Source of the DNA: Methylocystis silviterrae
GTDB lineage: Bacteria > Pseudomonadota > Alphaproteobacteria > Rhizobiales > Beijerinckiaceae
NCBI RefSeq assembly: GCF_013350005.1
Contig: NZ_JABVWW010000006.1
Span: forward strand, 1 to 64,000
Direction of reading: 5' to 3'
DNA: 64,000 bases
Positions 1,224 through 57,754 of this stretch are shown piece by piece. The first letter of the stretch is position 1, and each line of letters starts with the position of its first letter. A model generated the notes under the pieces. It was given only the letters and a program-made list of their open reading frames with translations, ran no database searches and had not been told where the DNA came from. Made by a program: the position numbers and the translations under genes.

Positions 1224-1655
1224 ATGCAGATTGGCGTCGAAACCGCGAAGGCGGTCGATCAACGGCGGGTGTTCGTCCTCGACGAAGACGAGATCGTGCG
1301 CGCCGCGCTTCAGTTCATGCTGCATGACGAGATCGAAACCCACGAAATCGCCAGTATCCAAGAAGCCTATGACAAGGGCGTCGGTTGGCTGAAGCCGGAC
1401 GTCGTCCTGCTCGGCGCTTCCTTTCTAAAGAGCAACGGCGTGTCGATCCTTAAGGAATTGGCGGAGCGTTTCGCCGGCGTGCGCATATTGATCGTCTGCG
1501 ATAAAGCCGACGAGGCGGTTGCGGTGGACGCCATGAAACATGGCGCGCATGGCATATTGGTGAAACCGCTGAAGATCGAGAATGTGCGGCAGAAGGTTGA
1601 CACCGTGCTCGGGCGCGGCGGCGCCAAGCCGCTCGTGCAATTAGGACTGCTTTAG
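1224..1655 (+). CDS. Receiver-domain protein lacking the phospho-acceptor Asp (pseudo-receiver 1)
   Basis: 143 residues, a single CheY-like fold. The start is the ATG at 1224 because GAAAGGAG lies just before it and a sigma-54 promoter lies between it and the more upstream possible starts. The acidic pocket (D20, E21) and the conserved Lys in LVKPL (K114) are visible. At the end of strand 3, where receivers have Asp (PDLVLLD), this protein has Gly (PDVVLLG, G64). Normal aspartyl phosphorylation therefore looks impossible, and the domain may act by binding a partner. A paralog with the same N-terminus (MQIG...AKA, RRVFV) is encoded at 57317-57754. Promoter and neighbours point to NifA control. 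Function unknown. Confidence 0.8.
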   Translation: MQIGVETAKAVDQRRVFVLDEDEIVRAALQFMLHDEIETHEIASIQEAYDKGVGWLKPDVVLLGASFLKSNGVSILKELAERFAGVRILIVCDKADEAVAVDAMKHGAHGILVKPLKIENVRQKVDTVLGRGGAKPLVQLGLL

Positions 1656-1710
1656 TCAATACGCCAACGTCTCGTCGGCGCTGCGATGGAGTGACGGCAT
1701 TACCCCGCAG

Positions 1711-2181
1711 TTGACACAATGGTTGACGACGCAAGGCTTTCGATCGGAAGGCGTGAACGCCGTCGGCGCCGACGGCCTCACGCCGCTTCTTCGAGCTGCG
1801 GCCGAGGCGAACGTCCCGGTGTTGCGCGAAATCATCGCAGAGGGCGGGGATCTCCACGCCTTGACGCGCGATGGCAACAATTCGGTATGGTTGGCGTGCA
1901 AGCAGGACAGCGTGGAGGCCATCGACTTGCTCGCCGCCGCCGGGGCCAATGTCCATCATCGCAATCCCGACGGCTCGACGGCGCTGATCTATGCAGCTTC
2001 CGCAGGCAAGACCGCGGTCGTGACGCTCTTGCTGGCGCTTGGCGCAGATCCCCTGGAAGAGAACGTCGATGGATTTTCGGCGCTTGATCTCGCGGCGAAC
2101 ATCGAATGCCTGAAAGTACTGCGCGTCGCGTCGCGCCAGCGCCGCGATCGGCCCAAAGCTGAAGGAATGGTCGAAACATGA
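1711..2181 (+). CDS. Ankyrin-repeat protein
   Basis: About 156 residues with three to four ankyrin repeats, recognisable from DGLTPLLRAA, DGSTALIYAAS and GFSALDLA with the usual 33-residue spacing. Such proteins mediate protein-protein contacts and have no enzymatic role. The stop codon overlaps the sufE start (ATGA), so the two are translationally coupled and the protein may act with SufE. The start is uncertain: the earliest codon after the in-frame stop at 1642 is a TTG at 1711 with no clear ribosome site. Confidence 0.8.
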   Translation: MTQWLTTQGFRSEGVNAVGADGLTPLLRAAAEANVPVLREIIAEGGDLHALTRDGNNSVWLACKQDSVEAIDLLAAAGANVHHRNPDGSTALIYAASAGKTAVVTLLLALGADPLEENVDGFSALDLAANIECLKVLRVASRQRRDRPKAEGMVET

Positions 2182-2618
2182 CGACGATCGACGACATCAT
2201 CGAAAACTTCTCGCTGCTCGACGATTGGGAAGACCGCTACCGCTATGTCATCGAACTTGGCAAAATGCTCGAGCCGCTTCCCGATGCGTTGAAGAACGAT
2301 CAAAATAAAGTCTCCGGCTGCGCCAGCCAAGTCTGGCTGGCGACGACAATTTCCGACGCAACCGGCGGCGAACCGGCGTTGATGATCCGTGGCGACAGCG
2401 ACGCGCATATCGTGCGCGGCCTCGTTGCAATCTTGCTGGCGCTCTGCTCCGGCAAGACCGGCGCGGAAATCCTGAAGGCGGATCCTGTCGCGTTATTCGA
2501 GCGTCTCGGCCTACGCGAACATCTGACGCCGCAGCGCTCCAACGGCTTCAAGTCGATGGTGGGGCGCATCCACGCGGAGGCGCGCGAGTTGCTCGCGGCC
2601 TCCAGCGCGGTGTCTTGA
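2178..2618 (+). CDS. sufE: SufE-like sulfur acceptor
   Basis: 146 residues, full length for SufE. SufE accepts persulfide sulfur from a cysteine desulfurase (SufS or NifS type) and passes it to the SufBCD scaffold. The active-site Cys is in the conserved VSGCASQVW motif near residue 51. The C-terminal GFKSMVGRI is also typical. It overlaps the ankyrin gene by four bases and is the last gene of the unit starting at 1224. No sufS is present in the window, so the likely partner is NifS (12543-13730). Confidence 0.92.
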   Translation: MTTIDDIIENFSLLDDWEDRYRYVIELGKMLEPLPDALKNDQNKVSGCASQVWLATTISDATGGEPALMIRGDSDAHIVRGLVAILLALCSGKTGAEILKADPVALFERLGLREHLTPQRSNGFKSMVGRIHAEARELLAASSAVS

Positions 2619-2632
2619 ACACTCAGGCGTGC

Positions 2633-2983
2633 TCAGCGCGACAAGATCATCACCAAGCGATCGACGCGCTTGCCGCCCTTGAGATGCGAGTCGTAAATTT
2701 CATCAATGTCTTCGGCCGTCGTCGGCCGATACCAGACGCCTTCGGGATACACCACCATCAGGGGTCCCGCTGAGCAAAACCCCATGCACCCCGCGGAGGT
2801 GAATCCGATCTCGCCGCCGCCGTCCGCTTCGACGCGCTTGCCGAGCCGCTCCCAAAGCGGCTGCGCGCCGAGCGAGCCGCAGCTGCCGCGCGGATGGTTC
2901 GGCGGCCGCTGCGTGAAACAAGCAAAGACATGTCGCTTGTAAAGTTGAGGCAGCTCAAATTCTTCTTCAGGCGTATCCGACAT
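2633..2983 (-). CDS. Thioredoxin-fold [2Fe-2S] ferredoxin (Shethna/FeSII-like)
   Basis: 116 residues from the ATG at 2983. Earlier in-frame starts would add 26 residues unlike the family. Cluster ligands are the Cys in HVFACFTQRPP, the Cys in RGSCGSLG about 12 residues later, and the C-X3-C pair in AGCMGFCSAGP. This arrangement fits thioredoxin-like [2Fe-2S] ferredoxins. In Azotobacter the related FeSII protein protects nitrogenase against oxygen. That role here is inference only. Convergent with sufE and divergent from the SufT-like gene. Confidence 0.85.
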   Translation of the reverse strand: MSDTPEEEFELPQLYKRHVFACFTQRPPNHPRGSCGSLGAQPLWERLGKRVEADGGGEIGFTSAGCMGFCSAGPLMVVYPEGVWYRPTTAEDIDEIYDSHLKGGKRVDRLVMILSR

Positions 2984-2998
2984 ACTGCACCGAGCCTT

Positions 2999-3014
2999 TG
3001 TGAGGATTGTAACA
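2999..3014. promoter_or_regulatory. NifA-type upstream activator site
   Basis: TGTGAGGATTGTAACA fits TGT-N10-ACA. It is centred ~118 bp upstream of the sigma-54 promoter at 3124, a normal distance for NifA action. Confidence 0.65.
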
Positions 3015-3090
3015 CGGCGCTCTGTGAGAAATGCGCTTCGTAAACGAAGGCGCTCAACCATGACGCCGCGGACCGTGGACGTGGAATGAT

Positions 3091-3106
3091 TGCAAATTTC
3101 AGTCCA
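3091..3106 (-). promoter_or_regulatory. Possible sigma-54 promoter for the [2Fe-2S] ferredoxin
   Basis: The minus strand reads TGGACTGAAATTTGCA. GG and GC are correctly spaced and the -12 element TTGCA is perfect, but the -24 element is weak. It lies 108 bases before the ferredoxin start. Confidence 0.4.
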
Positions 3107-3123
3107 GCCTCAGCAATGCTGAC

Positions 3124-3139
3124 TGGCGCCTTACTTGCT
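3124..3139 (+). promoter_or_regulatory. Sigma-54 promoter for the SufT-like gene
   Basis: TGGCGCCTTACTTGCT matches 14 of 16 positions with correct GG-GC spacing. It is 37 bases before the ATG at 3176, and a TGT-N10-ACA site lies about 118 bp upstream. Confidence 0.7.
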
Positions 3140-3175
3140 GGTTTGCACTGAGCAGTCGCGAACGCGGCTCGCGCC

Positions 3176-3577
3176 ATGCAGGATACTCAGATGGAACCAC
3201 GAAGCGACATGACACAGCTTTCCGAGCCGAACAGTCGCGTCGGCCGCAGCGATTCTTCGCCCGAGGCGCAGGCGCTTTATGAGGAAGTCGTCCTTGCGCT
3301 GCGGACCGTGTTCGACCCGGAAATTCCGGTGAACATATACGATCTGGGACTGATCTATCGCATCGACGTTATCGATCGACGCGACATCGACATCGACATG
3401 ACGTTGACGGCGCCGGGCTGCCCCGTCGCCGGCGAAATGGTCGGGATGACGAAGAAGGCTGTCGATGCGGTCGATGGAGTGGCGAGCGTAAAAATTAATC
3501 TCGTGTTCGATCCGCCGTGGCATCAGAGCATGATGAGCGACGAAGCGAAGCTGGAATTGGGATTTTTCGACTCCTGA
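3176..3577 (+). CDS. MIP18/DUF59 family Fe-S assembly factor (SufT/PaaD-like)
   Basis: 133 residues. The core motifs are DPEIPVNIYDLGLIY, LTAPGCPVAGEM with the conserved Cys, and LVFDPPWHQSMMSDEAK, all typical of the DUF59 family used in late Fe-S cluster maturation (SufT, PaaD, eukaryotic MIP18). The N-terminal ~30 residues are variable, so the start could be the ATG at 3176 or one of two later Met codons. It probably assists Fe-S maturation alongside sufE, nfu and sufBCD elsewhere in the window. Driven by a sigma-54 promoter. Confidence 0.88.
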   Translation: MQDTQMEPRSDMTQLSEPNSRVGRSDSSPEAQALYEEVVLALRTVFDPEIPVNIYDLGLIYRIDVIDRRDIDIDMTLTAPGCPVAGEMVGMTKKAVDAVDGVASVKINLVFDPPWHQSMMSDEAKLELGFFDS

Positions 3578-3718: not shown

Positions 3719-4432
3719 ATGATCGAACTCACTTCCGGAGATGGGCGCAGTTTCTCCGCCTATCGAGCCGAACCCACCGAGGCTCCCAAGGGCGCCGTCG
3801 TCGTGCTGCCGGACGTCTACGGCGTCACGCCACATCTGCAAAAGGAAGTCGAAGGCTTTGCGGCTGAGGGCTATGTCGCGATCGCGCCAGCGCTTGCGCC
3901 TCAGGAGGGCGAGAGCGACGGCGCTTCCGTCACGACCGCCTTGCAAGATATTCAAGCCACTGTCGACGCCGTGAAGGGCGTAGGCAAGGTGGCGATCGTC
4001 GGCTATGACTGGGGCGGCTATCTCGCCTATGTTTCGGCCAATCGTCTTAGCGACGTCGCCTGTGCGATCAGCTATTATCCGGCCGGAATTTCAGAGGAAC
4101 GTTGGGTGAAGCGGAAAATTCCGACGCTGCTGCACCTGCCCGAGAATGATCCGTCGTTGCCGATGGAAGACATCGTCCAATTTCGCGCCCAACGACCCGA
4201 CGTAAGCGCCTTCTCCTATCCCGAGGCCCGCAACGGCTTCAATTTCGACGCCGCGGAGAGTTTCAACGAAGCCGCCGCGCAATCGGCGCGCGAGCGCACT
4301 TTGTTTTGGATCTCGCAATATGTCGAGGGTCAGAAGCCGATCGCACTGAAGAACTCCGGCTCCTATGCGCAGGCCAAGGTCGACAAGAAAAAGAAGAAGA
4401 GCGGCGACGACATGGGTCCGCCGGACGCGTGA
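3719..4432 (+). CDS. Dienelactone-hydrolase-like alpha/beta protein with altered catalytic residues
   Basis: 237 residues from the ATG at 3719. The overall layout follows dienelactone hydrolases: VVLPDVYGVTPHL, then a nucleophile elbow, LLHLPENDPSLP with the acid (D144), and a C-terminal YPEARNGFNFD. In the family the nucleophile is Cys (GYCFGG) and the base is His (HGF). Here they are Asp (GYDWGG, D97) and Asn (NGF, N172). Asp as nucleophile is known in haloalkane dehalogenases and epoxide hydrolases, but those also need the His. Normal hydrolase activity is therefore doubtful. The C-terminus is a Lys-rich tail (KVDKKKKKSGDD). No promoter was seen, so it may be co-transcribed with the SufT-like gene 140 bp upstream. 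Confidence 0.8.
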   Translation: MIELTSGDGRSFSAYRAEPTEAPKGAVVVLPDVYGVTPHLQKEVEGFAAEGYVAIAPALAPQEGESDGASVTTALQDIQATVDAVKGVGKVAIVGYDWGGYLAYVSANRLSDVACAISYYPAGISEERWVKRKIPTLLHLPENDPSLPMEDIVQFRAQRPDVSAFSYPEARNGFNFDAAESFNEAAAQSARERTLFWISQYVEGQKPIALKNSGSYAQAKVDKKKKKSGDDMGPPDA

Positions 4433-5609: not shown

Positions 5610-6092
5610 TCAGGCGGCTTTGGCTTCCGCCATCGGCTCCCATTTGTAGAGTTCCGCGCCCTCTTCCGTCTTCGTCAAGGAGAAGCCGCAGCCTTTGAGT
5701 TCCGCAGCTAACCCCTGCGCGTCGCCGGCTTTCACTTCGACATAGACCGGCACATTGCGCTTCAATATCGCGTCGATCAGCACTTTGAATGCGCCGTTCT
5801 CGCGATGGTCGGCGGACACCGCCGCCAGCGAGACGTTGATTGTTTCAGTGTTGCGCAGACCCCAATCGAGTTCATCGCGACGCGCCAATAAGGCCCCGAC
5901 GACATTACGCTTCGCATCGAGAATAACCGGCGAGAATTCGGCCGTGCAGCACTTCATGATTTCCGTCAGCGCCCGCTCCTGATCGCTTTCGCTTTCAATC
6001 GAACACGGAATGTCGGCAGCCGTTTGCCGCATCAAGGCCCAAAGGTTTTTCATGTCGTCAAGCGATGCATTTCTATGCGCGAGGTCAGCCAC
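5610..6092 (-). CDS. GNAT-like N-acetyltransferase family protein (tentative)
   Basis: About 160 residues. I chose the GTG at 6092 because AAGGAGAAACC lies immediately upstream; ATG alternatives at 6125 and 6149 lack a ribosome site. The pattern of N-terminal helix, SPVILDAKRNVVGALLARRDE and INVSLAAVSADHRENGAFKVLIDAIL resembles GNAT strand 2 to helix 3 (acetyl-CoA site), but the usual R/Q-X-X-G-X-G/A loop is not clear. Substrate unknown. It shares a divergent sigma-54 promoter region with the gene at 6243. Confidence 0.6.
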   Translation of the reverse strand: MADLAHRNASLDDMKNLWALMRQTAADIPCSIESESDQERALTEIMKCCTAEFSPVILDAKRNVVGALLARRDELDWGLRNTETINVSLAAVSADHRENGAFKVLIDAILKRNVPVYVEVKAGDAQGLAAELKGCGFSLTKTEEGAELYKWEPMAEAKAA

Positions 6093-6164: not shown

Positions 6165-6183
6165 GCTGCAGCGCCGAAGGCAT

Positions 6184-6242: not shown

Positions 6243-6485
6243 ATGGCTGTCGAAGGCTTTTTCATCGACTGGGACGGCAACGCGCGTAGAACGAGCGATC
6301 CAGGAGGCGGCTATCTATGCGAAGCCGATACAGTGGCGCGCTATGTGGCGATCATGACCAAGAGCGGCGCGCTTATGCATGAAGGCACCTATTACAAAAC
6401 CCTCGCCGACATTGAAAAGGCGGGCATCAAGGCGTCGCTCGTCCCCGGGTCGCATCCTTGGGGAAGCAAGGCGGAAGGTTTTTGA
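6243..6485 (+). CDS. Unrecognised 80-residue protein
   Basis: 80 residues from the ATG at 6243, preceded by GAGAGGGA. A more upstream ATG at 6120 would lie above the sigma-54 promoter, so it is rejected. Visible features are FFIDWDGNARR, a Gly-rich turn and GSHPWGSKAEGF at the end. No known motif, and cytoplasmic by appearance. It is first of a two-gene unit with 6510-6776, and its promoter marks it as a nif-regulon member of unknown role. Confidence 0.75.
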   Translation: MAVEGFFIDWDGNARRTSDPGGGYLCEADTVARYVAIMTKSGALMHEGTYYKTLADIEKAGIKASLVPGSHPWGSKAEGF

Positions 6486-6806: not shown

Positions 6807-6974
6807 TCATTCGTCGAGACTCGGCGCGAGGATGACTTCCGCCGGCGCGCCTGGCCCCTGGCCCTCGACGAAGTCCAATCCGCTGACGCGAGAAAGCCCG
6901 CCGTCGCTGTCGATCAGCACAACGGCCTCCTGCGGCAACTCCGCCAATTTCACGATCAATTCAGCCACGGTCAT
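6807..6974 (-). CDS. Small 55-residue protein
   Basis: 55 residues from the ATG at 6974 (MTVAELIVKLAELPQEA...). The opening helix followed by VVLIDSDGG resembles short conserved proteins that start T-V-x-E-L-I-x-K-L-x-x-L-P, whose function is not known. It starts 35 bases downstream of the Rieske 2 stop on the same strand, so it is probably the second gene of that unit. A longer in-frame extension is Arg-rich and overlaps the Rieske gene, so it is not used. Confidence 0.6.
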   Translation of the reverse strand: MTVAELIVKLAELPQEAVVLIDSDGGLSRVSGLDFVEGQGPGAPAEVILAPSLDE

Positions 6975-7009
6975 CGTGCGCCTTTCATACGTTCCATCCG
7001 CTGCGCCAC

Positions 7010-8007: not shown

Positions 8008-8238
8008 TCAGGCCGCCGCAGTGTTGGCGGCGATGCTCGCGCGCAGTTCTTCGAGCTTGTCGCGCGTAATGCGGAACACGCCACGACCGCCAGAAAGCGC
8101 CTGATAGCCGTCGGGCGCGTTCAGACTGACCCAGTCGAACCAAGCCTGTGCGGAATTTGGCGTCGGCCGCTCGCTGATTTCAACGACGCCGCCGTCAGGC
8201 GCAAAGCGGACATGAAGCATGACGATGTCGGAAGACAT
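8008..8238 (-). CDS. Unrecognised 76-residue protein
   Basis: 76 residues from the ATG at 8238, which has an excellent ribosome site (GAGGAGGGAGAA). The sequence includes MLHVRFAPDGGVVEISERP and FRITRDKLEELRASIAAN. No cofactor motif. It lies 14 bases downstream of the [2Fe-2S] ferredoxin gene and is the last gene of the nifZ-led operon, so it may be a partner of that ferredoxin. Family unknown. Confidence 0.75.
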   Translation of the reverse strand: MSSDIVMLHVRFAPDGGVVEISERPTPNSAQAWFDWVSLNAPDGYQALSGGRGVFRITRDKLEELRASIAANTAAA

Positions 8239-8252: not shown

Positions 8253-8561
8253 TTATAAGCCCGACGCGAAGCCGAGCAGCTCGACCTTGACGTTTTCCGT
8301 GCCGAGAATCTTCGCCTGGCACGCCAGGCGGGACTTCGAGCCGATGCCAACGATGGTGTCCAGCCTTTCGTTCTCTTCGCGCGCGATCTTCGAAATCCCT
8401 TTGCGGCCTTCATGCACGTAGATGTGACACGAGCCGCACTGCGCTTTTCCTTCGCACTTGTGATTGATCTCCTCGCCGCTCGACATGATGATCTGCAGCA
8501 AGGTCGCGCCCTCGGCGGCGTCCACCGTCTTTCCGGAGGGCATGATGGTTACGGTCGGCAT
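8253..8561 (-). CDS. Plant-type [2Fe-2S] ferredoxin
   Basis: 102 residues from the ATG at 8561 (AGGAG upstream). The cluster ligands follow the pattern C-X5-C-X2-C in CEGKAQCGSC, with the fourth Cys in SRLACQAKI. It is an electron carrier, probably donating to nitrogenase or to an assembly step. It lies directly after the DegT-like gene in the operon that begins with nifZ at 11015. A second ferredoxin of a related adrenodoxin type is at 45586-45915. Confidence 0.9.
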   Translation of the reverse strand: MPTVTIMPSGKTVDAAEGATLLQIIMSSGEEINHKCEGKAQCGSCHIYVHEGRKGISKIAREENERLDTIVGIGSKSRLACQAKILGTENVKVELLGFASGL

Positions 8562-8590
8562 TTCGATACTCCTGGTTGGCATTTGGACGA

Positions 8591-9802
8591 TTAGTAAATG
8601 GCGGCGCCCGCGCCGACATTGATCGACGCTTCCTTCATCGTCTGCACGATGAATGCGATTTGGCGCTCTTGCAGATGGACGTGGAAAGGCATCGCGACGG
8701 CGCGGTCCGAAACCTTTTCGGCGACGAGAAAGCTGCCGCGACGATAGCCGTAGTCGAAATAGCGCCGTTGCGTATGCAAGGGATTGCTGTAGGCGGCGGC
8801 TTCCACCTTTTCGACGAGCAAATCCTCGACGATCGAGTCCCGGCTGGATTTGCTGAAGCGCGTGCCGAGGTGAACGACGTAAAGGAACCAGTGCACTTCA
8901 TCGACCTCTGGCCCGATGAAGGGATCCTTGATGCCTTCGAAGGATTTGACGTGCTTGAAGTAGTAGTGCTCGATGAGCTTACGCTTCTCGAGGATTTCTT
9001 CGAGCCTTTGCAGCTGCGCCAAGCCCAGCGCCGCGCTCATGTCGCTCATCGCCGCCTGATAGGGCGCGCTGGAGCCCACCACGACCGACGCTCGCTCGCT
9101 CGGTCTATGCGCGCGGAAGCGCCGCATCGCCACCGCGACGTCGATGTCGTCGGTGACCACCATGCCGCCTTCGCCGCAGACCAGCGGCCCCGGCTGCGAG
9201 AAATCGAACACCGAGGCGTCCCCGAACGTGCCGACGAGCGCGCCCTTGTATTTGGAGCCGATTGCTTCGGTGGAGTCTTCGAGCAGCACGAGCCGATGCT
9301 TGGTTGCGATGTCGCGCAGCTCCGCCCATTGCGCCGGATGGCCGTTGGTGTTGCTCGCCACGATCGCGCGCGTTTTGTCGGTGATCAGCGCCTCGATTTT
9401 TCCGGTCGCGATGACGCCGGACCAATAGTCGATGTCGGCGAACACCGGCTTGGCGCCGGCAAGCGCGATTGCATGCACGGTTTCGCGGAAGGAATGCGGC
9501 GAGGCGATCACTTCATCGCCCGGACCGATCTCGTACGCGGCGAGCGCGAGCAGCAGCCCCATCGTGCCGCTTGGGGTCGCCACAGCGTATTTGCGCCCGA
9601 GATAGGCGGCGAAGGCGCCTTCGAAAGCCTCCATCACCGGGCCGCTGGACAAGCGGCTGGAACGCAGCACCGCCTCGACCGCGGCAATGTCGTCGAGCGT
9701 GATGTCGGGGTCGGAAAGGGGGATGAGATCGCCGCCCAAGGCCTCAGCGGGAACCGGCGGCTTCGCTTCGAGTTTATCGTCCACTTGGGCCCGCGCATTC
9801 AT
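8591..9802 (-). CDS. DegT/DnrJ/EryC1/StrS-family protein without the catalytic lysine
   Basis: 403 residues, full length for the PLP fold-type I DegT/StrS family. These enzymes normally transaminate keto-sugars with PLP bound to a Lys in a motif like VFSFHxxKNLTTGEGG. Here the equivalent stretch is VFDFSQPGPLVCGEGG, so the Lys position is Gly (G205). The Asp that pairs with the PLP ring nitrogen (LLEDS, D176) remains. The usual DAAHA is DSTEA. The protein probably cannot form the internal aldimine. The start overlaps the previous stop (ATGA). It sits in a NifA-controlled operon between a small nif protein and a ferredoxin, so a structural or ligand-sensing role is possible. Confidence 0.88.
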   Translation of the reverse strand: MNARAQVDDKLEAKPPVPAEALGGDLIPLSDPDITLDDIAAVEAVLRSSRLSSGPVMEAFEGAFAAYLGRKYAVATPSGTMGLLLALAAYEIGPGDEVIASPHSFRETVHAIALAGAKPVFADIDYWSGVIATGKIEALITDKTRAIVASNTNGHPAQWAELRDIATKHRLVLLEDSTEAIGSKYKGALVGTFGDASVFDFSQPGPLVCGEGGMVVTDDIDVAVAMRRFRAHRPSERASVVVGSSAPYQAAMSDMSAALGLAQLQRLEEILEKRKLIEHYYFKHVKSFEGIKDPFIGPEVDEVHWFLYVVHLGTRFSKSSRDSIVEDLLVEKVEAAAYSNPLHTQRRYFDYGYRRGSFLVAEKVSDRAVAMPFHVHLQERQIAFIVQTMKEASINVGAGAAIY

Positions 9803-10087: not shown

Positions 10088-10453
10088 TCACTGCCAGAAG
10101 CGCCGCTCGGCGTCTTCCTTGAGATGGTCGAGCAACTCCGCAAGACGTGGAAACTCGCTGTCCAGCTCCCACACGCCGATTGCATGGTCCTTGCGAAGAA
10201 GGCGCCAATTGCCTTTGCGTTCGTCGAAGAGCACCAAGGCGATGTCGATGACGCCGCCGTCCGGATCGACGTTCCGCGAACAACACGGGCTCTGAATGCG
10301 ATAGCCGTTCGCAGTTTTCGTCACGACTGGCGTGACATAGCGGTAGCGACGCCGTTGTTCCAAGGCGCGCACGATGCGCTTGTAGTCGAATTCATTCGGC
10401 TGAGCCGATGCGGCGCCACCGAGTGTCGTGACCGTCGATCGCATGCTCGCCAT
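10088..10453 (-). CDS. DUF3024 family protein
   Basis: 121 residues from the ATG at 10453, chosen for the AGAGGAG ribosome site and its position 8 bases after the preceding stop. Family hallmarks are RRRYRYVTP, GYRIQSPCCSRNVDPDGG, the central VDIAL-like strand (IDIALVLF), and RRFWQ at the C-terminus. The adjacent cysteines CCSRN could bind metal, but this is not established. Biochemical role unknown. Placed between the second nifZ-like gene and the DUF6129-like gene in one operon. Confidence 0.8.
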   Translation of the reverse strand: MASMRSTVTTLGGAASAQPNEFDYKRIVRALEQRRRYRYVTPVVTKTANGYRIQSPCCSRNVDPDGGVIDIALVLFDERKGNWRLLRKDHAIGVWELDSEFPRLAELLDHLKEDAERRFWQ

Positions 10454-10461
10454 CGCTCCTC

Positions 10462-10701
10462 TTACAAGGGCGCGATCTCTTCCTCGAGACAACCGACGAC
10501 ACGGCCGTCGGGAAATTCAACGAGATAGATCGGCGTATTCGTATCAGTATGCGATCCGACCTGCACGATTTCGCCCAAACCGCCGTTGGCGACGAGCAGC
10601 GCCTCCGGTTTCTCGTCGGGATAACTCCCATCATTGACCAGATCGACGAGCGTCTTCACTCGCTGACCCCATTGATATTTCGGCATTCGTGGTTCGAACA
10701 C
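10462..10701 (-). CDS. nifZ: NifZ-family protein 2
   Basis: 79 residues from the GTG at 10701, which is 8 bases after GAGGAG. Other GTG or TTG starts at 10707 and 10716 overlap that site. The conserved signature runs PKYQWGQRVKTLVDL ... NDGSYPD, GGLGEIVQVGSHTD, IYLVEFPDGRVVGCLEEEI. NifZ helps pair [4Fe-4S] units into the P-cluster of NifDK. It is the second of two tandem nifZ-type genes. The two are only about 25-30 percent alike by eye, so this is an old paralogy rather than a recent copy. Confidence 0.85.
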   Translation of the reverse strand: MFEPRMPKYQWGQRVKTLVDLVNDGSYPDEKPEALLVANGGLGEIVQVGSHTDTNTPIYLVEFPDGRVVGCLEEEIAPL

Positions 10702-10712: not shown

Positions 10713-11015
10713 TCAAGGCAGCGGGAGATCGACGTCATCGCGCGGATTAGCCGACTCGAGTTCCTTGCGCTTCATGCCGACGCGATTGCCGCTTTCGGTG
10801 AACTCAATCCCGTAGATATAGAATTGTTGGAGAAAGGTGCCGATGCTCACGACGTAGCCTTCCTCGCCTTTCTTGGCGAGAACCTCGCCGATCTCCTTAC
10901 CGGCGTATGTCCCGTCGTTGCGGATCGTGCGCTTCGCCTTCACTTTCTCGCCGAAGGAAAAGACGGGCGGCGCAGTCAGTTCACAAACTTCACTGTCGCG
11001 AACGATGTTGCTCAT
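10713..11015 (-). CDS. nifZ: NifZ-family protein 1
   Basis: 100 residues, full length for NifZ. Typical segments are FGEKVKAKRTIRNDGTYAGKE, KKGEEGYVVSIGTFLQQFYIY and GIEFTESGNRVGMKRKELE; the GTFLQ motif is diagnostic. NifZ acts with NifH in P-cluster maturation. It is the first gene of a minus-strand operon running to 8008. A 15/16 sigma-54 promoter and two NifA-type sites lie upstream. Confidence 0.92.
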   Translation of the reverse strand: MSNIVRDSEVCELTAPPVFSFGEKVKAKRTIRNDGTYAGKEIGEVLAKKGEEGYVVSIGTFLQQFYIYGIEFTESGNRVGMKRKELESANPRDDVDLPLP

Positions 11016-11155: not shown

Positions 11156-11171
11156 GGCAACATGCGTGCCA
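11156..11171 (-). promoter_or_regulatory. Sigma-54 promoter of the nifZ operon
   Basis: The minus strand reads TGGCACGCATGTTGCC, 15 of 16 positions. It is ~140 bases before the nifZ start, with two TGT-N10-ACA sites about 50 and 90 bp upstream. This gives the 407-base gap between nifZ and the SIR2-like gene a clear regulatory content. Confidence 0.9.
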
Positions 11172-11422: not shown

Positions 11423-12286
11423 TTAGCGGATCAGGATCTCGCAAGCACGATCGATGGGCAGCGCGATCGGTATGATTCCCTGGATCGTGAGGAACTTCAG
11501 CTCGTTTTTCGTCAACACGGCCGGATCGACGATGGCGTGATGCGTCGTCGTCGAGCGCTTCATGATCTGCCGGGCGTACGTGCGCAACAATTGATCGTGG
11601 AAGCGACAACCGACAAACAGGAAACTGCGCTCAGACCGGCGATTCTTTACCGCCTCCGGCAAGGGCGTCTGAATGTCGATCTCTGTTAGCACCTCGACGT
11701 AATCCGCATCGGAGATCAGAAAATTCTTGGCGGGCGCAATGCTGCCGTGTGGCTTGTAGAGGACGGTCTTCCAGGCGTCGGCTTTTTCCTTGGTGGTTTC
11801 CGTTCCGTCCGCTTCGTAGAACCGGTACCAGCGGTCCTCGCCGATGCCGGCGCGGGTGATGCCCTGAATCTCGCCCCAGTCGCTACGGCCTTCGAGCGCC
11901 GAACGCATCGTCGCGTCGTACCAGCTGTCAACGATCATCGGCAGCTGCAGCGACGCAAGGTAGACGTGCAGCGGCGTCGGCGCGATGCTGTCGTTGAACG
12001 CCTGCGACATCAATGTCGAGACGGTCGAACGATGCTTCATGTTCTCGATGTGCTGCGCGCTTGCCCAGGCGTTGCCCTTGGCGCGCTTTGGCAGCGCCAC
12101 TTTGGTCCCGAAAAATGCGGCGAGCGCCTCGGGCGTCATCGGCACCTCGGTTGGCGAGAGCTGCGTCAACCCAGGACCGATATAGGGGATAACGGTCCCC
12201 GTCTTCAGCTCAGCGGCGATTTTGGCGAGCGCTTCCTCGGCCTTCTCGCCTTCAAGGAGGACATAGCTGTCAAATGGCGCGTTCAT
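11423..12286 (-). CDS. SIR2-like NAD-binding family protein
   Basis: 287 residues from the ATG at 12286, with GGGGAG upstream. SIR2-type signs are VIPYIGPGLTQL in place of the usual GAGxS loop, YKPHGSI with the His expected as catalytic base, and FLISDADYVEV. The altered first loop leaves NAD hydrolase or deacylase activity open. The C-terminal half (FLFVGCRFHDQLLRTYARQI) fits the SIR2_2 type. It lies 4 bases after nifT and ends the iscA-nfu-nifS-nifT operon. A role in nitrogenase regulation is conceivable but unproven. Confidence 0.75.
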   Translation of the reverse strand: MNAPFDSYVLLEGEKAEEALAKIAAELKTGTVIPYIGPGLTQLSPTEVPMTPEALAAFFGTKVALPKRAKGNAWASAQHIENMKHRSTVSTLMSQAFNDSIAPTPLHVYLASLQLPMIVDSWYDATMRSALEGRSDWGEIQGITRAGIGEDRWYRFYEADGTETTKEKADAWKTVLYKPHGSIAPAKNFLISDADYVEVLTEIDIQTPLPEAVKNRRSERSFLFVGCRFHDQLLRTYARQIMKRSTTTHHAIVDPAVLTKNELKFLTIQGIIPIALPIDRACEILIR

Positions 12287-12290
12287 CGCT

Positions 12291-12506
12291 TCACTCCCCT
12301 TCGCCGCGCTTGCGCGCATTGACCGTTATCGGAAGCGAAGTGCCGGCCGCCATTTCGGGAAGATCGAGAATCCAGCCGTTGGCGATCTTGATCCAGCCGC
12401 CCCACAGACTCTCGTGCTCGGTTTCGACGATCGGCTCTTCCAGGTCTTTTTTGGGGACGTAGATCGACAAGCCGGTCTCTGGCGAACGACGGATCATGAT
12501 CTTCAT
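12291..12506 (-). CDS. nifT: NifT/FixU family protein
   Basis: 71 residues, with AAAGGAG before the ATG. The family pattern MKIMIRR, LSIYVPKKDLEEPIV, LWGGWIKIANGWILDLP is complete. NifT is a small nif-operon protein of unclear, non-essential function in the nitrogenase maturation group. It follows nifS by 36 bases and precedes the SIR2-like gene. Confidence 0.93.
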   Translation of the reverse strand: MKIMIRRSPETGLSIYVPKKDLEEPIVETEHESLWGGWIKIANGWILDLPEMAAGTSLPITVNARKRGEGE

Positions 12507-14548: not shown

Positions 14549-14693
14549 TTGCCCACCGCTCCGTGTCGCTTCCGTCGCGCCGATCGCCTCTTCGACGCTT
14601 CGAAACTGCGGCGAAGTTTTTGCATGAGGCGTGCCGTAACGAAGGATCCCCCGCGCGGATGCTGCGTAAGGATTGCAAAGCGGAGAACTGTCG

Positions 14694-15284
14694 ATGACTC
14701 AAATTGAGAAGACTGCCCTTGCTCGGCTGGATCGGGAGGGCCGCCTGCTCAACGCAGTGCTTAAGGGGCCGACCGGCAAGCCGGGGCGCTTCGGTTTTCG
14801 GGGCGACATCGCGCTCAAATTTCAGGAGCAGGTCGCCGACGAAAAGCGCCCGCCGGATTTTTCCATCGAGCAGGTGCTGACCTTCGCGAACGAAGGCGAA
14901 GCGACGATCCCGATCCTCGCCGGCTATCTGCATAATTTCGCCTACCTCGAAACGGCCCACGAAGTGATCGGCGATCTCCTCTCGCCGACTGGCGCCTATT
15001 TCATGTTCTGCAACAATATCGATCTGCTCGCGAAATTCCGCGTCAAGCTCGGCGAGATCACCTACAACGTGCTGCCCTGCGACGAGTCGACGGTGTGGAA
15101 GGAGATGATGGATCTCGCCATGGTCGACAAGAATGACATCAAGAAGCTCGACACCGGCGGCAAGCTCGACGTTCTTCTCGACACCGCGCTGAAGTTCAAC
15201 GACGCTTACGAAATCATCGCATATCAGCAGGGCGTCGAGCGTATGGAGCCGGTCAAAAACCGCAACGAAAACCGGCCGGTTTGA
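14694..15284 (+). CDS. Unrecognised 196-residue protein
   Basis: 196 residues from the ATG at 14694 (AAGCGGAG upstream). It looks soluble, with a mixed alpha/beta composition. Noticeable segments are GRFGFRGDIALKFQEQVAD, TIPILAGYLHNFAYLETAHEVIGDLL and LGEITYNVLPCDESTVWKEMMDLA. Two Cys residues are not arranged as a metal site. It is divergent from the iscA-nifS operon, so the UAS at 14533 could also act on it, but no sigma-54 promoter was found on this strand. Function unknown. Confidence 0.75.
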   Translation: MTQIEKTALARLDREGRLLNAVLKGPTGKPGRFGFRGDIALKFQEQVADEKRPPDFSIEQVLTFANEGEATIPILAGYLHNFAYLETAHEVIGDLLSPTGAYFMFCNNIDLLAKFRVKLGEITYNVLPCDESTVWKEMMDLAMVDKNDIKKLDTGGKLDVLLDTALKFNDAYEIIAYQQGVERMEPVKNRNENRPV

Positions 15285-27509: not shown

Positions 27510-28421
<912 letters not shown>

Positions 28422-41315: not shown

Positions 41316-41331
41316 TGGCACGCAGTTTGCG
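41316..41331 (+). promoter_or_regulatory. Sigma-54 promoter for the 100-residue gene at 41414
   Basis: TGGCACGCAGTTTGCG, 15 of 16 positions. Predicted transcription start ~41343. It lies inside the longer reading frame that begins at 41315, which shows that the true start is downstream. The remaining bases of the 41091-41413 gap show no other feature. Confidence 0.8.
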
Positions 41332-44840: not shown

Positions 44841-45527
44841 ATGAATGAACAGGTGCGCGCCGTCCTGATCGAGCTCGAAGGCACCGCGGTTCCGATGGCT
44901 TTCGCGACCGGAACTCTCATGCCGCTCGCGCAGGCGCGGCTTGGCACCTTCATCGCGGAACATGCCTTGGACCCGGATGTGGAAGACGCGTTGGAGGAAA
45001 CGGGGCGTCTCCTTGGCGGATTCGACTTGAAGCTCGAGGAAGCCGAAGCGCTGTTGCTGCGCTGGATGAAGCAGAATCGCAAGGCGACCCCGCTGAAGAC
45101 GATACAGGGCCTGATCTGGCGCGAGAGTTTTGAGGCAGGCGCGATCAAAAGCGAGCTTTATCCCGACGTTGCGGAATCGCTGAGATCATGGGCGGCATCG
45201 GGCCAGCGCCTGTTTGTTTACTCGTCCAATTCGAGATTGGCGCAGCAACTCCTGCTGAGCCACAGCGCCTCGGGCGACCTCACAAGCCTGTTCGAGGAGT
45301 TCTTCGACACATCCATCGGTCAGAAAATCGAACCCGCCTCCTACCGCGCGATCTGTGAGCGTCTCGATTTGCCTTCGGGATCGGTGCTGGCGCTGTCGGG
45401 CGATGGGGAGGAATTGGACGCCGCGCAGTCGGCGGGCCTTGCGACGACGCTTATCGCGCGAGAGGGTTCCGCAGACAGTCGCCATGCGGTTTGCCCTGAT
45501 TTTGCGTCATTGAATTTGGGGTCGTGA
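44841..45527 (+). CDS. MtnC-like HAD protein with changed catalytic aspartates
   Basis: 228 residues, close over the whole length to enolase-phosphatase E1 (MtnC, methionine salvage): RKATPLKTIQGLIW, YPDVAESLRSW, VYSSNSRLAQQLLLSHSASGDL, FFDTSIGQKIEPASYRAI, ELDAAQSAGLATTL. HAD phosphatases need the first Asp of D-x-E-G-T as nucleophile; here it is Glu (ELEGT, E11). The SSG loop reads SSN, and the Mg-binding LSDVVAELDAA is LSGDGEELDAA, with Gly (G187) at the Asp position. Phosphatase activity is doubtful. No other methionine-salvage gene is nearby. It precedes a [2Fe-2S] ferredoxin by 58 bases. Confidence 0.85.
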   Translation: MNEQVRAVLIELEGTAVPMAFATGTLMPLAQARLGTFIAEHALDPDVEDALEETGRLLGGFDLKLEEAEALLLRWMKQNRKATPLKTIQGLIWRESFEAGAIKSELYPDVAESLRSWAASGQRLFVYSSNSRLAQQLLLSHSASGDLTSLFEEFFDTSIGQKIEPASYRAICERLDLPSGSVLALSGDGEELDAAQSAGLATTLIAREGSADSRHAVCPDFASLNLGS

Positions 45528-45585
45528 CGCGCTCCCGCGCTGCCTCCGCCAAACATTGCTGAGGAGTTCGGGCAGATGGTGAAAG

Positions 45586-45915
45586 ATGGCCAAGTTCACT
45601 CTTGAAACCAGAGACGGCGCCAGACAGGAGATCACCGGCAAGAATGGCGTCTCGCTGATGAAATTGATCCGGCGCGCCGGCGTCGAAGAGCTGGTCGCGC
45701 AATGCGGCGGCAGTTGCGCCTGTGCGACCTGCCATGTCTATCTCACCTTGCCTGGGGGGACTGCAATGACCGAGCCAGGACCGGCGGAAAACCGGATGCT
45801 TTCGACAGCCAGCCATCGCAAATTCAATTCACGTCTCGCCTGTCAAATCAGGTTCGACGAGACGTTTGACGGAATGGCGATCCGCATCGCTCCAGAGGAT
45901 GCGACCGGCTTTTAA
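45586..45915 (+). CDS. Adrenodoxin-type [2Fe-2S] ferredoxin
   Basis: 109 residues. Ligand pattern C-X5-C-X2-C in CGGSCACATC, with the fourth Cys in SRLACQIRF. The start ATG at 45586 fits the family N-terminus (FTLETRDGARQEI). Such ferredoxins serve Fe-S biogenesis or oxygenases. It follows the MtnC-like gene in the same direction and may be co-transcribed with it. The extra Cys within the loop (GGSCA) is unusual. Confidence 0.88.
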   Translation: MAKFTLETRDGARQEITGKNGVSLMKLIRRAGVEELVAQCGGSCACATCHVYLTLPGGTAMTEPGPAENRMLSTASHRKFNSRLACQIRFDETFDGMAIRIAPEDATGF

Positions 45916-46321: not shown

Positions 46322-46975
46322 TCAATCTCGGATCTCGTTCTGAATTGAAAAGATATCGTAGGGAGGATCGTTGTCCGAATTGGCGTAGCCCAATGGCGGC
46401 GCGTCGCCGCTTCCGCCTGATGCGCCGGATCGGCGACTGATCCGGCCGATGTCGCCCCCATAAACATGGAAGATGATGGATGTTTGATCATCCAGCGCGT
46501 TGCGAAGCTCGAAGACCTCGCCGCTCGCGGACGACCGGGCAGCTTCAACAGCGCACGCTTGCAATAGGCGGGACACGCCGGCCTGCGCGCTATTCGTCGA
46601 AGAAGCATCGAGTTGCTGGCGGTTGACGGCGCCGCGCAACACGCCGGCAATCTCCCAAACCGAAGGCTGAGAGATTGTCACGCAGGCGCCGCCTGACAAA
46701 ATTGTGCTCACGACGGAAAAGCGATCCAGCCCGTCGCGATAAATTTGGAATTGCTGGCCTCCGGCGGGATTTGGGACGGCGAAGACCGTTGGCAGCCAAT
46801 CGTCAGTCGTGAAGAGCCGGGCCATGAGATCGCGGCCGATCAGCAAAATCTCCCGCTCGCTTTCGGCGAGTTCGACCATGGACTGAATGTCCCAGATGAA
46901 TCGCCGCAGCGCGGGGGGAACAGGGTCTCGCCCGATGACTCGTAAATTTGGATCAGCCGCATTTATCTCGATCAT
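46322..46975 (-). CDS. Cysteine-dioxygenase-like cupin lacking the His-X-His metal pair
   Basis: 217 residues. The core GLDRFSVVSTILSGGACVTI ... SVWEIAGVLRGAV and the distal DQTSIIFHVYGGDIG match bacterial cysteine/thiol dioxygenases (CDO_I), where the corresponding segment reads P-I-H-D-H-T-V-W. Here it is T-I-S-Q-P-S-V-W, so the two His ligands of the Fe(II) site are Ser102 and Pro104. The third His (H170) is kept. Fe-dependent thiol oxidation is therefore unlikely. The ~35-residue C-terminal part is Gly/Ser/Asp-rich and low-complexity. Upstream gene in the same direction: the ArgD-like pseudo-enzyme, separated by 148 bases. Confidence 0.8.
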   Translation of the reverse strand: MIEINAADPNLRVIGRDPVPPALRRFIWDIQSMVELAESEREILLIGRDLMARLFTTDDWLPTVFAVPNPAGGQQFQIYRDGLDRFSVVSTILSGGACVTISQPSVWEIAGVLRGAVNRQQLDASSTNSAQAGVSRLLQACAVEAARSSASGEVFELRNALDDQTSIIFHVYGGDIGRISRRSGASGGSGDAPPLGYANSDNDPPYDIFSIQNEIRD

Positions 46976-47123: not shown

Positions 47124-48224
47124 TCATCGTTCCTCCTGCGCGCAAATCATTTCGATGCAGGATACCGCCGCATCGATGTCGCTTTCCTCAACTGTGAGCG
47201 GAGGAAATAATCCCAGGACCGAGCCCATCGCGCGCGTGAGGAGCCCGTGCGCGGCCAGCTTCGCGCGGATGGGCTCCGCGTCTCCCGTGAGCGTTAACGC
47301 CTGCATCAGGCCAAGGCCATCCAGCGCCGTAAAGGCTGCACGACGCCGATAAAACAATGCGGACAGCTGGTCTTCGAGATACCAGCTTCGATTCTGCACG
47401 CGCTCCTGAAAGCCCGGCGTCGAGAGAGCGTCGACAAGGGCGTGGCCGGCCAGAAGCGCGGCCCCGTCAGCGAGCGCCGAGCCGCCGAGCGCCCCTCGCG
47501 CCAGTCTTTGCGTAACGACGAGCGCAGCCAGCGGCGGGGCGTCTGCAGGCCCGTGACCGGCGACCATCAGGTCCGGGGTGACGCCTGTCCATTCGTGCGC
47601 CCAAAGCATGCCTGAGCGGCCGAGGCCGCAAAAGGTTTCGTCGAAACCGAGCATGAGCCCATATTCGTCTGCGGTCTCGCGCAGCCGGGCGAGCACGCTG
47701 CCTGGGACGACCTCAAAACCGGCGCGCGTCCTAACCGGAGCGATCAGAATGCCCGCAGTCGTCACGTCGACTTCCGCCTGCACTGCGGCGTGATCGTCCG
47801 TTCGGAGAAGGATGATCTCGTCATCGCCCTCGAGGCCAGGCGGAAGGCTCTCCGTTCCATCAGCAGGTCCGACACAGACAATGAACCGGCGGCGCTTGGG
47901 GCGGCCGACGAGTCGATGGTAACGCCGAACCATTTCGACGGCGGAACGCCAGGCGTCGGCTTCGGTGGGAAGCAAAAACACGCGGTCGCCAAAAGAAACG
48001 GGCGAAATCTTCGCGCATAAAGCATCCGAAAGCGCCGCGGCTTCCGGCGCTGATTGTGGCGAATCTATTGGCGCATTCGTGCGGGGCGCTGAAGAATTCT
48101 CAGGAAAGAAGAGCGATGAGCCGGAAAAGTCGAGCGGCGCGGCCGCGACCAATGTGTCTCCGGTGACGGCGGGTTTGATGAGCGCGTTAGGCTCGCTCGT
48201 CGAATCTGAGAATGGGGCTGACAT
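47124..48224 (-). CDS. ArgD-like class III aminotransferase homolog lacking the PLP lysine
   Basis: 366 residues. The middle and C-terminal parts follow acetylornithine aminotransferases: FDETFCGLGRSGMLWAHEWTGVTPDLM, LVDALSTPGFQERVQ. In the family the next segment is M-A-V-A-K-G-I-G-G-G with the PLP Lys. Here it is M-V-A-G-H-G-P-A-D-A, with His (H224) at the Lys position. The substrate-loop SGAEA is LPTEAD. The Asp contacting the PLP ring (FDE, D195) is kept. The N-terminal ~70 residues are Ala/Ser/Pro-rich and non-homologous. Transamination is not expected. Same direction as the CDO-like gene. Confidence 0.8.
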   Translation of the reverse strand: MSAPFSDSTSEPNALIKPAVTGDTLVAAAPLDFSGSSLFFPENSSAPRTNAPIDSPQSAPEAAALSDALCAKISPVSFGDRVFLLPTEADAWRSAVEMVRRYHRLVGRPKRRRFIVCVGPADGTESLPPGLEGDDEIILLRTDDHAAVQAEVDVTTAGILIAPVRTRAGFEVVPGSVLARLRETADEYGLMLGFDETFCGLGRSGMLWAHEWTGVTPDLMVAGHGPADAPPLAALVVTQRLARGALGGSALADGAALLAGHALVDALSTPGFQERVQNRSWYLEDQLSALFYRRRAAFTALDGLGLMQALTLTGDAEPIRAKLAAHGLLTRAMGSVLGLFPPLTVEESDIDAAVSCIEMICAQEER

Positions 48225-53613: not shown

Positions 53614-53618
53614 CAGCG

Positions 53619-54302: not shown

Positions 54303-54313
54303 CGATACGGCTC

Positions 54314-56833: not shown

Positions 56834-57017
56834 CGGGGAACCGCCAAGGGGGGTTATGCGTTGTCTACTTTCGCGTGGTGCGAAGAAGTTGATCGAAGCT
56901 AAATTTGGCGGTGATCGCGGTCAACAGTCGAAACGTTTGAATGGAAGTATTGTAATCTGTATAGTTTCAGACACATACAACAATTTTTTTGGCGATTGTT
57001 GTCATTCCGCCACACGT

Positions 57018-57048
57018 CTAGTTTGGAACCGCTTTAATTCCAAACTAG
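57018..57048. repeat. Perfect 11-bp inverted repeat (possible operator)
   Basis: CTAGTTTGGAA and TTCCAAACTAG flank the 9-base spacer CCGCTTTAA. Not followed by a U-run on either strand, so an operator for an unknown regulator is more likely than a terminator. Confidence 0.65.
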
Positions 57049-57264
57049 GTGGCGCTACTTTGACAGAGAATATTATGTTCGTTGCGCCGAAAGGCGCAGA
57101 GGGTCGCGCTGTGAAGTGCGGCGGTAGGGTTCGTCGGTTTGGCTGATCTGGCCGTTGGCGTGAGCCCGCCAAATTTGAGCGGCCCATGCCGCAGACAGCT
57201 GTGCGACGGCCGCCATCCCGTTGGGAAGCCATGGCGATCGCGCCGCTTCGCAGCGCTCCGCATG

Positions 57265-57280
57265 CGGCACGCAACTTGCT
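57265..57280 (+). promoter_or_regulatory. Sigma-54 promoter for pseudo-receiver 2
   Basis: CGGCACGCAACTTGCT, 15 of 16 positions. Predicted start ~57291 and the ATG at 57317. Confidence 0.85.
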
Positions 57281-57316
57281 TTCAGCATCGTGAGTCAATC
57301 ACCGCGCGAGGCTGCC

Positions 57317-57754
57317 ATGCAGATCGGCGTAAAGGTGGCGAAAGCCATCGAACGCAGGCGCGTTTTTGTCGTGGACGACAATGAAACCTTTCGCGCGGCG
57401 ATCGAGTTCATGCTCCACGACGAATATGAGGCGCATGAACTCGCGAGCGCGACCGAAACGCTCGCAAAGGCGGAGCAAATAAGGCCGGACTTGCTGATGC
57501 TTGCCGAGGGCGTCATCCGCGTCAACGGCTTGGATCTCATTCAGGAGTTTCTGGCGCGCGTTCCCGAAACCAAAATCATCGTCATCGTCGATCAGATTTC
57601 CAGCGGATTCGGCCAGGAGTGCGTCGCTGAGGGCGCGCACGGCTTTCTGGCGAAGCCGCTGCGGGTTGAGCTGCTGCGCGATAAGGTCGACGCGCTGCTG
57701 AACGCCAGGAAAAAGGCCGTCACAATGCCGCGGGCCGTTCTGAACATGCGTTAG
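57317..57754 (+). CDS. Receiver-domain protein lacking the phospho-acceptor Asp (pseudo-receiver 2)
   Basis: 145 residues from the ATG at 57317, downstream of the sigma-54 promoter. Paralog of the protein at 1224-1655: both open MQIG, then AKA, R-RRVFV and share FMLHDE and HE-AS. The acidic pair D20-D21 and the Lys in LAKPL (K113) remain, but the phospho-acceptor position is Ala (PDLLMLA, A63). A short basic C-terminal tail follows. It lies 44 bases before the truncated hemoglobin and may be co-expressed with it. Likely a non-phosphorylated signalling or adaptor domain. Confidence 0.82.
   Translation: MQIGVKVAKAIERRRVFVVDDNETFRAAIEFMLHDEYEAHELASATETLAKAEQIRPDLLMLAEGVIRVNGLDLIQEFLARVPETKIIVIVDQISSGFGQECVAEGAHGFLAKPLRVELLRDKVDALLNARKKAVTMPRAVLNMR

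Follow-up and report, generated by a model that had tools for sequence, protein, structure and literature searches.

The locus described here raises the question why a nif region should encode several enzyme and receiver homologues that have lost their catalytic residues. The stretch analysed, 64,000 nucleotides from Methylocystis silviterrae (from here on the window; it opens contig 61 in a source assembly of 64 contigs totalling 3.85 Mb), is a nif region of Methylocystis, and its DegT protein is 96-97% identical to the DegT of Methylocystis rosea, M. suflitae and other Methylocystis. From the letters alone, an original prediction had singled out seven proteins that keep a family fold and lack the defining residue (two receivers (REC) and homologues of DegT/StrS, dienelactone hydrolase (DLH), MtnC, ArgD and cysteine dioxygenase (CDO)), and it had suggested that they form one pseudo-enzyme system. 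All seven losses proved real when the proteins were aligned with homologues of known structure or with relatives that have the residue. We found that REC, DegT and DLH, together with a fourth nif-linked member missing from that prediction, a SIR2-like protein, form a conserved non-catalytic set in the nif clusters of many Alphaproteobacteria and partly in those of some Gamma- and Betaproteobacteria. Probably separate from this set are the MtnC-, ArgD- and CDO-like proteins, pseudo-enzymes restricted mostly to one or two genera, so that the suggested system is half supported, as a conserved nif set with lineage-specific neighbours.

Occurrence was scored in a family sample (149 genomes of the same family, 27 with and 122 without nifD (TIGR01282); thresholds E<=1e-16 for REC and E<=1e-60 for DegT) and in a class sample (365 genomes, 13 with and 352 without nifD; DegT at E<=1e-120). 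Gene neighbourhoods were taken from the named loci, the best 80 of 445 DegT relatives in genome_contigs, which come from Methylocystis, Xanthobacter, Bradyrhizobium, Azorhizobium, Nitrospirillum, Niveispirillum, Roseibium, Hyphomicrobium, Methylocapsa and others, one record being labelled a Chitinivibrionia metagenome-assembled genome. The nif linkage of DLH and SIR2 was counted within these named loci.

The DegT-like protein

The DegT/StrS homologue lies in a run of genes that starts with nifZ in the window:

8591..9802, minus strand: nif-linked pseudo-DegT/StrS (DegT_DnrJ_EryC1, 1.6e-89), the lysine that binds pyridoxal phosphate (PLP) replaced by Gly and the Ser five residues earlier by Asp
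8253..8567, minus strand: 2Fe-2S ferredoxin-like protein adjoining DegT, present in 65/80 named nif loci
10088..10468, minus strand: DUF3024 protein between nifZ and DegT, present in 72/80 named loci
10713..11015, minus strand: nifZ (NifZ domain, 1.2e-31), first gene of the run leading to DegT
11157..11171, minus strand: exact sigma-54 box 5' of nifZ

The PLP-lysine column was aligned to the lysine of 3bn1 and 3dr7 (the related entry 3dr4 is titled a K186A mutant). None of the 81 nif DegT rows retains the lysine: its column holds S, G, L, F, V, M or A, and in all 81 an Asp (position 200) has taken the place of the Ser five residues earlier. Both Lys and Ser are present in all 28 ordinary DegT relatives, which are the best-scoring relatives with loci, taken from sister genomes and not at random. 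A catalytic residue at a shifted position, proposed beforehand as the finding that would overturn the prediction, was excluded both for DegT (no Lys between F199 and G212 in 81 rows) and for REC (no Asp at 63-65 in 50 rows). The nif DegT proteins are set apart by the Asp at 200, the lysine loss and a Gln-Pro pair (Gln203-Pro204; Ser-Pro in Paraburkholderia). The acidic residue E179 was rejected as a further peculiarity, as Glu is also found in 10 of the 28 ordinary relatives.

DegT was found in 22 of the 27 family genomes with nifD and in none of the 122 without it (Fisher 7e-22), and in 4/13 against 0/352 genomes of the class sample (p 1e-6), values that take genomes as independent although they are related and so overstate independence. 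In the named loci nifZ is no more than three recognised genes away from DegT in 80/80 cases, nifB is found in the DegT flanks in 63/80 and SIR2 in 69/80. The run comprises nifB, an IscA-like protein, TPR and LRV proteins, nifZ, DUF3024 and the 2Fe-2S ferredoxin. NifB, NifZ and IscA are concerned with Fe-S or cofactor assembly. The association also extends beyond the Alphaproteobacteria, as REC, DegT and SIR2 occur together on a nif plasmid of Methylococcus sp. EFPC2 (Gammaproteobacteria) and DegT on a nif plasmid of Paraburkholderia sprentiae (Betaproteobacteria); both copies of DegT agree in the lysine loss and in the Ser-to-Asp change.

The prediction that several of these genes have sigma-54 promoters held for REC (below) and for the genes ahead of DegT. 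A box with at most one mismatch precedes nifB in 62/62 loci scored, and the co-directional genes ahead of DegT carry it, either nifB or, in Methylocystis, nifZ (exact in the window). A box of its own was found for DegT in 0/73 cases. The promoter tally skips L139-L145 to reduce near-duplicates, and single mononucleotide shuffles served as controls for the boxes.

The family fold is kept: a profile of nif DegT matches DegT aminotransferase structures at 1e-69, a structure model of moderate confidence resembles perosamine synthase and ArnB over nearly the whole length (29% identity to 3dr7), and mean column identity of the alignment is 72%. As a separate observation, on a plasmid of Bradyrhizobium sp. 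BWA-3-5 (L285, 8001-9120) DegT matches in two pieces, with no gene in the incomplete table, and is apparently broken.

The receivers

The window contains two stand-alone receivers, one at each end of the stretch of interest:

1224..1655, plus strand: REC1, aspartate-less receiver divergent from nifH' (Response_reg (PF00072), 4.5e-14), phospho-site Gly
1159..1174, plus strand: sigma-54-like -24/-12 box of REC1, TGGAACAGAGCTTGCT
57317..57754, plus strand: REC2, second aspartate-less receiver (Response_reg, 5.4e-15), Asp to Ala
at 57265: sigma-54-like box of REC2, CGGCACGCAACTTGCT
57799..58224, plus strand: truncated haemoglobin 3' of REC2 (Bac_globin, 6.9e-7)

CheY-type structures were matched from 5.9e-15, and the missing phospho-Asp was aligned to 6er7. 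Over 50 rows (family genomes, named loci and the Methylococcus plasmid, without the fragments L177, L190 and L197; 49 of the 50 are distinct in the core) the phospho-site is Gly in 39, Ala in 6 and Ser in 5, and never Asp. The pocket Lys is kept in 50/50 and the first residue of the acidic pair in 49/50; widening the search for a displaced Asp to positions 62-67 gave one row of the 50. REC qualifies as an aspartate-less receiver under the definitions of PMC12632262. The Pfam search gave no output domain, so REC should work by binding a partner; the PADLOC match was weak (0.005).

REC was found in 22 of the 149 family genomes, all with nifD (22/27 against 0/122) and identical to the 22 that have DegT. 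In 19 of these REC and nifD share a contig, on opposite strands and 1.35-1.68 kb apart, with nifH between them, and in the other three (G000, G290 and G298) the contig ends at that place. A box of the form [CT]GG[CA]A[CT]N5TTGC, a pattern broadened after the DOA9 table (below) had been seen, occurs 48-91 bp 5' of REC in 38 of 49 distinct upstream regions and in 0/49 shuffles. Table 1 of PMC13207237 lists a 'cheY' of Bradyrhizobium sp. DOA9 with the identical box as an RpoN target, its box sites being cross-referenced with RpoN-responsive genes. This 'cheY' is probably the REC orthologue, judging from its box CGGAACGGAAATTGC, which is that of L186, L191, L183 and L172, and from a locus tag near fixA and modA.

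Several side observations concern the distribution of the receivers. The order receiver, truncated haemoglobin recurs in L128, L130 and L283:4148-5009, including the Methylococcus nif plasmid, and PMC3912193 describes a globin and a two-component response regulator on a nif fosmid, most genes of which have their closest relatives in betaproteobacteria. Several Bradyrhizobium nif loci keep DegT and have no intact REC. In L177 and L197 there are REC remnants only. In L194, L199, L202, L203, L206 and L212, nifH lies in the flank and REC was not found within the flanks. REC may be dispensable in some clusters, perhaps symbiotic ones, although that these are symbiotic is a guess.

The SIR2- and DLH-like proteins

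The two remaining members of the set are:

11423..12319, minus strand: nif-linked pseudo-SIR2, ThsA-like (SIR2_2, 1.2e-22), catalytic Asn to Trp
3719..4432, plus strand: nif-linked pseudo-DLH (DLH, 6.4e-28), Cys to Asp and His to Asn, Asp kept

A profile of 25 nif SIR2 members (L196 and L270 omitted) matches 7uxt at 1e-9 and ThsA (6lhx) at 3e-6, and PADLOC also reports ThsA (1.6e-7). The Asn of the TTNYD motif in 7uxt and 6lhx aligns with a Trp that is present in all 25 rows and in 66 of 68 rows when the named loci and the window are taken together, the remaining two being gaps. For the SIR2 protein of the nif operon of Rhodobacter capsulatus, Rcc03262, Table 1 of a proteomics study (PMC6925177) gives a measurement in the wild type and the mark NF in the nifA double mutant; it is linked to our protein by its description as a nif-operon SIR2 protein, not by alignment.

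DLH was found in the nif region of 33/80 named loci. In a tree of 52 rows, from which L161 (which ends at a contig edge) and identical sequences had been removed, all 35 nif rows group in a single clade (100/100), separate from the 17 ordinary relatives. The latter have Cys at the nucleophile, and the whole Cys-Asp-His triad, in 17/17; the aligned structure entries have Ser at the nucleophile and are presumably Cys mutants. The window protein has D-D-N, and the nif rows as a whole show D-D-N 9 times, G-D-H 8, C-D-H 5, C-D-Q 4, S-D-R 2, A-D-R 2 and five other triads once each (the His column of L154 is aligned poorly). The triad Asp is kept in 35/35. By the tree, the site was altered more than once while the remainder of the protein was conserved. 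PADLOC gave no match for DLH.

Selection

The ratio of nonsynonymous to synonymous substitution (dN/dS) was calculated pairwise (Nei-Gojobori) between the window genes and those of Methylocystis and near relatives. It ranged from 0.03-0.11 for REC1 (8 pairs), 0.06-0.12 for DegT (9), 0.04-0.16 for DLH (8) and 0.03-0.09 for SIR2 (8), compared with 0.05-0.13 for nifS (7). REC, DegT, DLH and SIR2 are therefore under strong purifying selection, with dN/dS near that of nifS. For MtnC, CDO and ArgD the values were 0.12-0.28, 0.12-0.43 and 0.24-0.41 (8 pairs each); these genes, like their neighbours, are more weakly constrained, and no gene looks neutral. The earlier statement that the genes are not decaying pseudogenes agrees with these ratios and with their conservation.

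The MtnC-, ArgD- and CDO-like proteins

The other three pseudo-enzymes lie together in the second half of the window:

44841..45527, plus strand: MtnC-like pseudo-phosphatase (acireductone synthase TIGR01691, 1.2e-54, above its cut-off)
45586..45915, plus strand: ferredoxin adjoining MtnC-like, the same pairing being found in other genomes examined
46322..46975, minus strand: CDO/thiol-dioxygenase-like protein, His-X-His lost and third His kept
47124..48224, minus strand: ArgD-like class III aminotransferase homologue (Aminotran_3, 5.9e-37), Lys to His

In the MtnC-like protein the nucleophile Asp is Glu and the Mg-binding Asp is Gly (aligned to 1yns and 2g80); two relatives of about 37% identity retain both Asp residues. 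It was found in the window genome, in four genomes of another genus (63-64%) and in one more genome of the genus Methylocystis (G304, 61%). In the other genus the nucleophile is still Asp and the Mg Asp is replaced by Glu; the two positions are Glu and Gly in Methylocystis, and Asp and Gly in G304. The ArgD-like lysine position, aligned to that of 2e54, is His in 17 and Tyr in 2 of 19 rows (the window being counted twice) and never Lys. For the CDO-like protein no CDO match was found in Pfam (two weak unrelated matches) or NCBIfam; a family profile (18 rows, the site of L069 being intact) matches cysteine and thiol dioxygenases (4qma, 5e-54), and a model with a predicted local distance difference test score (pLDDT) of 81 matches thiol dioxygenases. 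Both His residues of H-X-H are gone in 25 of 28 rows, and the three rows that have them are relatives of 33-39% identity.

Of the 149 family genomes, the own genome included, 5 have a close orthologue of the MtnC-like, 6 of the ArgD-like and 8 of the CDO-like protein (the last at >=47%). They co-occur with nifD (4/27 against 1/122, 5/27 against 1/122 and 7/27 against 1/122; Fisher 0.004, 0.0007 and 2e-5, uncorrected for relatedness), which speaks against dropping them from a system of seven members. This co-occurrence can probably be ascribed to their restriction to few genera. All three are present in G198, where nifD is missing, and no nif genes of the window were found in the 14-18 kb around them outside the Methylocystis-type blocks. 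The exceptions there are that the MtnC-like gene retains its ferredoxin and that the CDO-like gene of L263 lies near suf genes. In G301, nifD lies at 1.80 Mb, the ArgD-like gene at 3.87 Mb and the MtnC-like gene at 4.37 Mb. The CDO-like gene is nearer, 39 kb from nifD in G301, 80 kb in G233 and 113 kb in G283, and >0.8 Mb from it in G244 and G278. Essentially the whole block is found in 8 of 38 other genomes of the genus, in one piece in five and in pieces in three.

The expected recurrence of the substitutions in orthologues next to nif genes was seen for REC, DegT and DLH and was not supported for the MtnC-, ArgD- and CDO-like proteins. A single pseudo-enzyme system of seven members was rejected, since these three are rare and scattered, have no nif genes in their flanks elsewhere and show dN/dS of 0.12-0.43. 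As a side observation, the MtnC-like gene and its ferredoxin (44841-45915) remain paired in another genus, where the rest of the region does not.

What the conserved set might do

The explanation that we favour, and hold to be somewhat better than evenly supported, is that REC, DegT, SIR2 and DLH are non-catalytic scaffolds or adaptors for nitrogenase maturation and control. DegT is read in this way because it has a dead fold, is conserved and is probably co-expressed among nifB, nifZ and Fe-S genes. In this mechanism the four proteins would act through protein-protein contacts: DegT and SIR2 (perhaps also DLH) might aid maturation of the nitrogenase cofactor or the P-cluster, and REC might be a phosphorylation-independent switch or a titrating partner in nif control, with an oxygen-related role where it is paired with the truncated haemoglobin. 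A more specific version, in which the four form one module that is partly gained and lost together, DegT, SIR2 and DLH scaffolding assembly of the cofactor or P-cluster and the sigma-54-driven REC coupling it to nif expression, seems to us doubtful.

A number of findings weigh against the scaffold explanation, besides the relatedness behind the Fisher values and the broadening of the REC box pattern. With a stricter sigma-54 pattern only 2/15 REC upstream regions scored, the Methylococcus REC has no box by either pattern within 150 bp, and DegT has no box of its own. In at least five family genomes (G161, G166, G200, G271 and G281) DegT lies >=70 kb from nifD or on another contig; L196, L201 and L207, which match three of these cases, have nifB and nifZ beside DegT. 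REC and DegT were both missing from 5 of the 27 family genomes with nifD, and DegT from 9 of 13 at class level, at the thresholds used, so that the set is accessory and not essential. The DegT model is weak to moderate (pLDDT 68). The whole DLH triad is kept in 5/35 nif rows, two of them from one genome (L167 and L096 are the same contig; counted once, the figure is 4/34), so that DLH may have remained an active enzyme in some species. Finally, lysine loss alone would leave chemistry of the pyridoxamine phosphate (PMP) type possible for DegT.

This last point leads to the first rival explanation, that the proteins are enzymes with altered chemistry: a lysine-free PMP reaction of DegT as in ColD and E1, an Asp nucleophile in DLH, another use of NAD by SIR2 and a Glu nucleophile in the MtnC-like protein. 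The E1 and ColD dehydrases have His at the lysine position (3bb8 is titled 'E1 Dehydrase H220K Mutant'), and both are among the relatives of DegT in the PDB; the triad Asp of DLH is invariant and some rows keep the whole triad. However, none of the residues in the lysine column of nif DegT is a base, the nearby Ser, a phosphate contact, has become an invariant Asp, and the DLH nucleophile column varies by lineage between D, G, S and A, unlike a newly fixed nucleophile. We regard altered chemistry as unlikely.

A little less likely still are metabolite sensors, as put forward in the original prediction, with PLP, thiols or keto acids bound at the former active sites and their levels signalled to nif control. 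In favour of this reading, the proteins are conserved and not decayed (by column identity for DegT and by dN/dS), ligand-binding pseudo-receivers are mentioned in PMC12632262, and the nifD co-occurrence of the MtnC-, ArgD- and CDO-like genes would fit. The Pfam search found no output domain on the proteins, however, and precisely the would-be sensors of thiols and keto acids (CDO-, ArgD- and MtnC-like) have no nif genes in their flanks elsewhere and are present in a genome without nifD.

The least likely reading is that nothing special is to be explained, pseudo-enzymes being common, several being expected among about 60 inspected genes and nif linkage reflecting hitch-hiking in transferred clusters, which fits three of the seven cases (MtnC-, ArgD- and CDO-like) but not four families conserved in many alphaproteobacterial nif clusters with dN/dS near nifS, of which Methylococcus also has three and Paraburkholderia one.

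Other genes and boxes of the window

Profile searches support nifD, nifN, nifB, nifS, two nifA genes and the C-terminal part of NifU in the window, as well as NifZ, SufE, IscA-type, DUF59-type, LRV_FeS and Rieske proteins, two PKHD proteins and a bacterial globin; the remaining nif and suf labels are our own reading and are assumed here. NifS, rhodanese, SufE and both PKHD proteins retain the motifs sought, as had been predicted. Two further features lie at the start of the window:

1..848, minus strand: nifH', second nifH copy, broken off by the contig start (99.0% identity over 868 bp to nifH 27510-28397)
996..1010, minus strand: exact sigma-54 box of nifH', TGGCACGGCCGTTGC

The two nifH copies (window 1-868 and 27550-28417, 99.0% identical), one divergent from REC1 and the other heading nifDK, likely result from a recent duplication or gene conversion, which is the probable origin of the contig break. 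The genome has four exact matches to TGGCACGN4TTGC, all in the window (1010-996, 11171-11157, 41316-41330 and 59186-59200). Five small proteins (14688-15281, 6243-6482, 6810-6977, 5613-6092 and 8011-8238) recur in nif loci, and none of them matched a Pfam family at E<=0.05.

Significance and comparison with known systems

In sequence records these genes are named aminotransferase, response regulator or CheY, dienelactone hydrolase and SIR2. With such enzyme-like names, those who build or transfer nif clusters may omit the genes or seek the wrong activity. If the proteins are scaffolds or adaptors, they would contribute to nitrogenase maturation in many diazotrophs, among them Methylocystis, Xanthobacter and Bradyrhizobium. 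Within the accessible portion of the open-licence literature we found no statement of catalytic loss in these proteins, an absence that carries little weight.

Some of the genes are in print already. Among the nif genes of Bradyrhizobium, PMC3899966 lists BRADO5396 ('cheY homolog'), BRADO5403 ('carboxymethylenebutenolidase (DLH)') and BRADO5411 ('Aminotransferase, DegT'), which are apparently the same genes as REC, DLH and DegT, judging from family name and nif listing and not from alignment of the locus tags. That paper, in the part seen, names working enzymes and regulators and makes no mention of a loss of catalytic residues, whereas the window genes lack these residues.

REC resembles the aspartate-less receivers (ALRs), or pseudo-receiver domains, of PMC4395418 and PMC12632262 in its receiver fold, in the missing phosphorylatable Asp and in the retained pocket Lys. 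It differs from them in that it stands alone, is divergent from nifH and mostly has a sigma-54-type box; the word 'nif' was not found in either paper, as far as each was available.

The nif DegT shares its fold, over nearly the whole length, with the DegT/DnrJ/EryC1/StrS sugar aminotransferases (3bn1, ArnB 1mdo, PseC 2fn6). Unlike these, it has lost the PLP lysine and the nearby Ser in 81/81 rows and sits in a nif operon.

Similarly, the nif SIR2 protein has the SIR2 fold and the YD motif in common with the ThsA-type SIR2 NADases (6lhx, 8bto, 7uxt), and the His of the HG motif is present in 63/68 rows. ThsA belongs to the Thoeris defence system. The nif protein has Trp in place of the catalytic Asn and is encoded within nif clusters instead of Thoeris loci.

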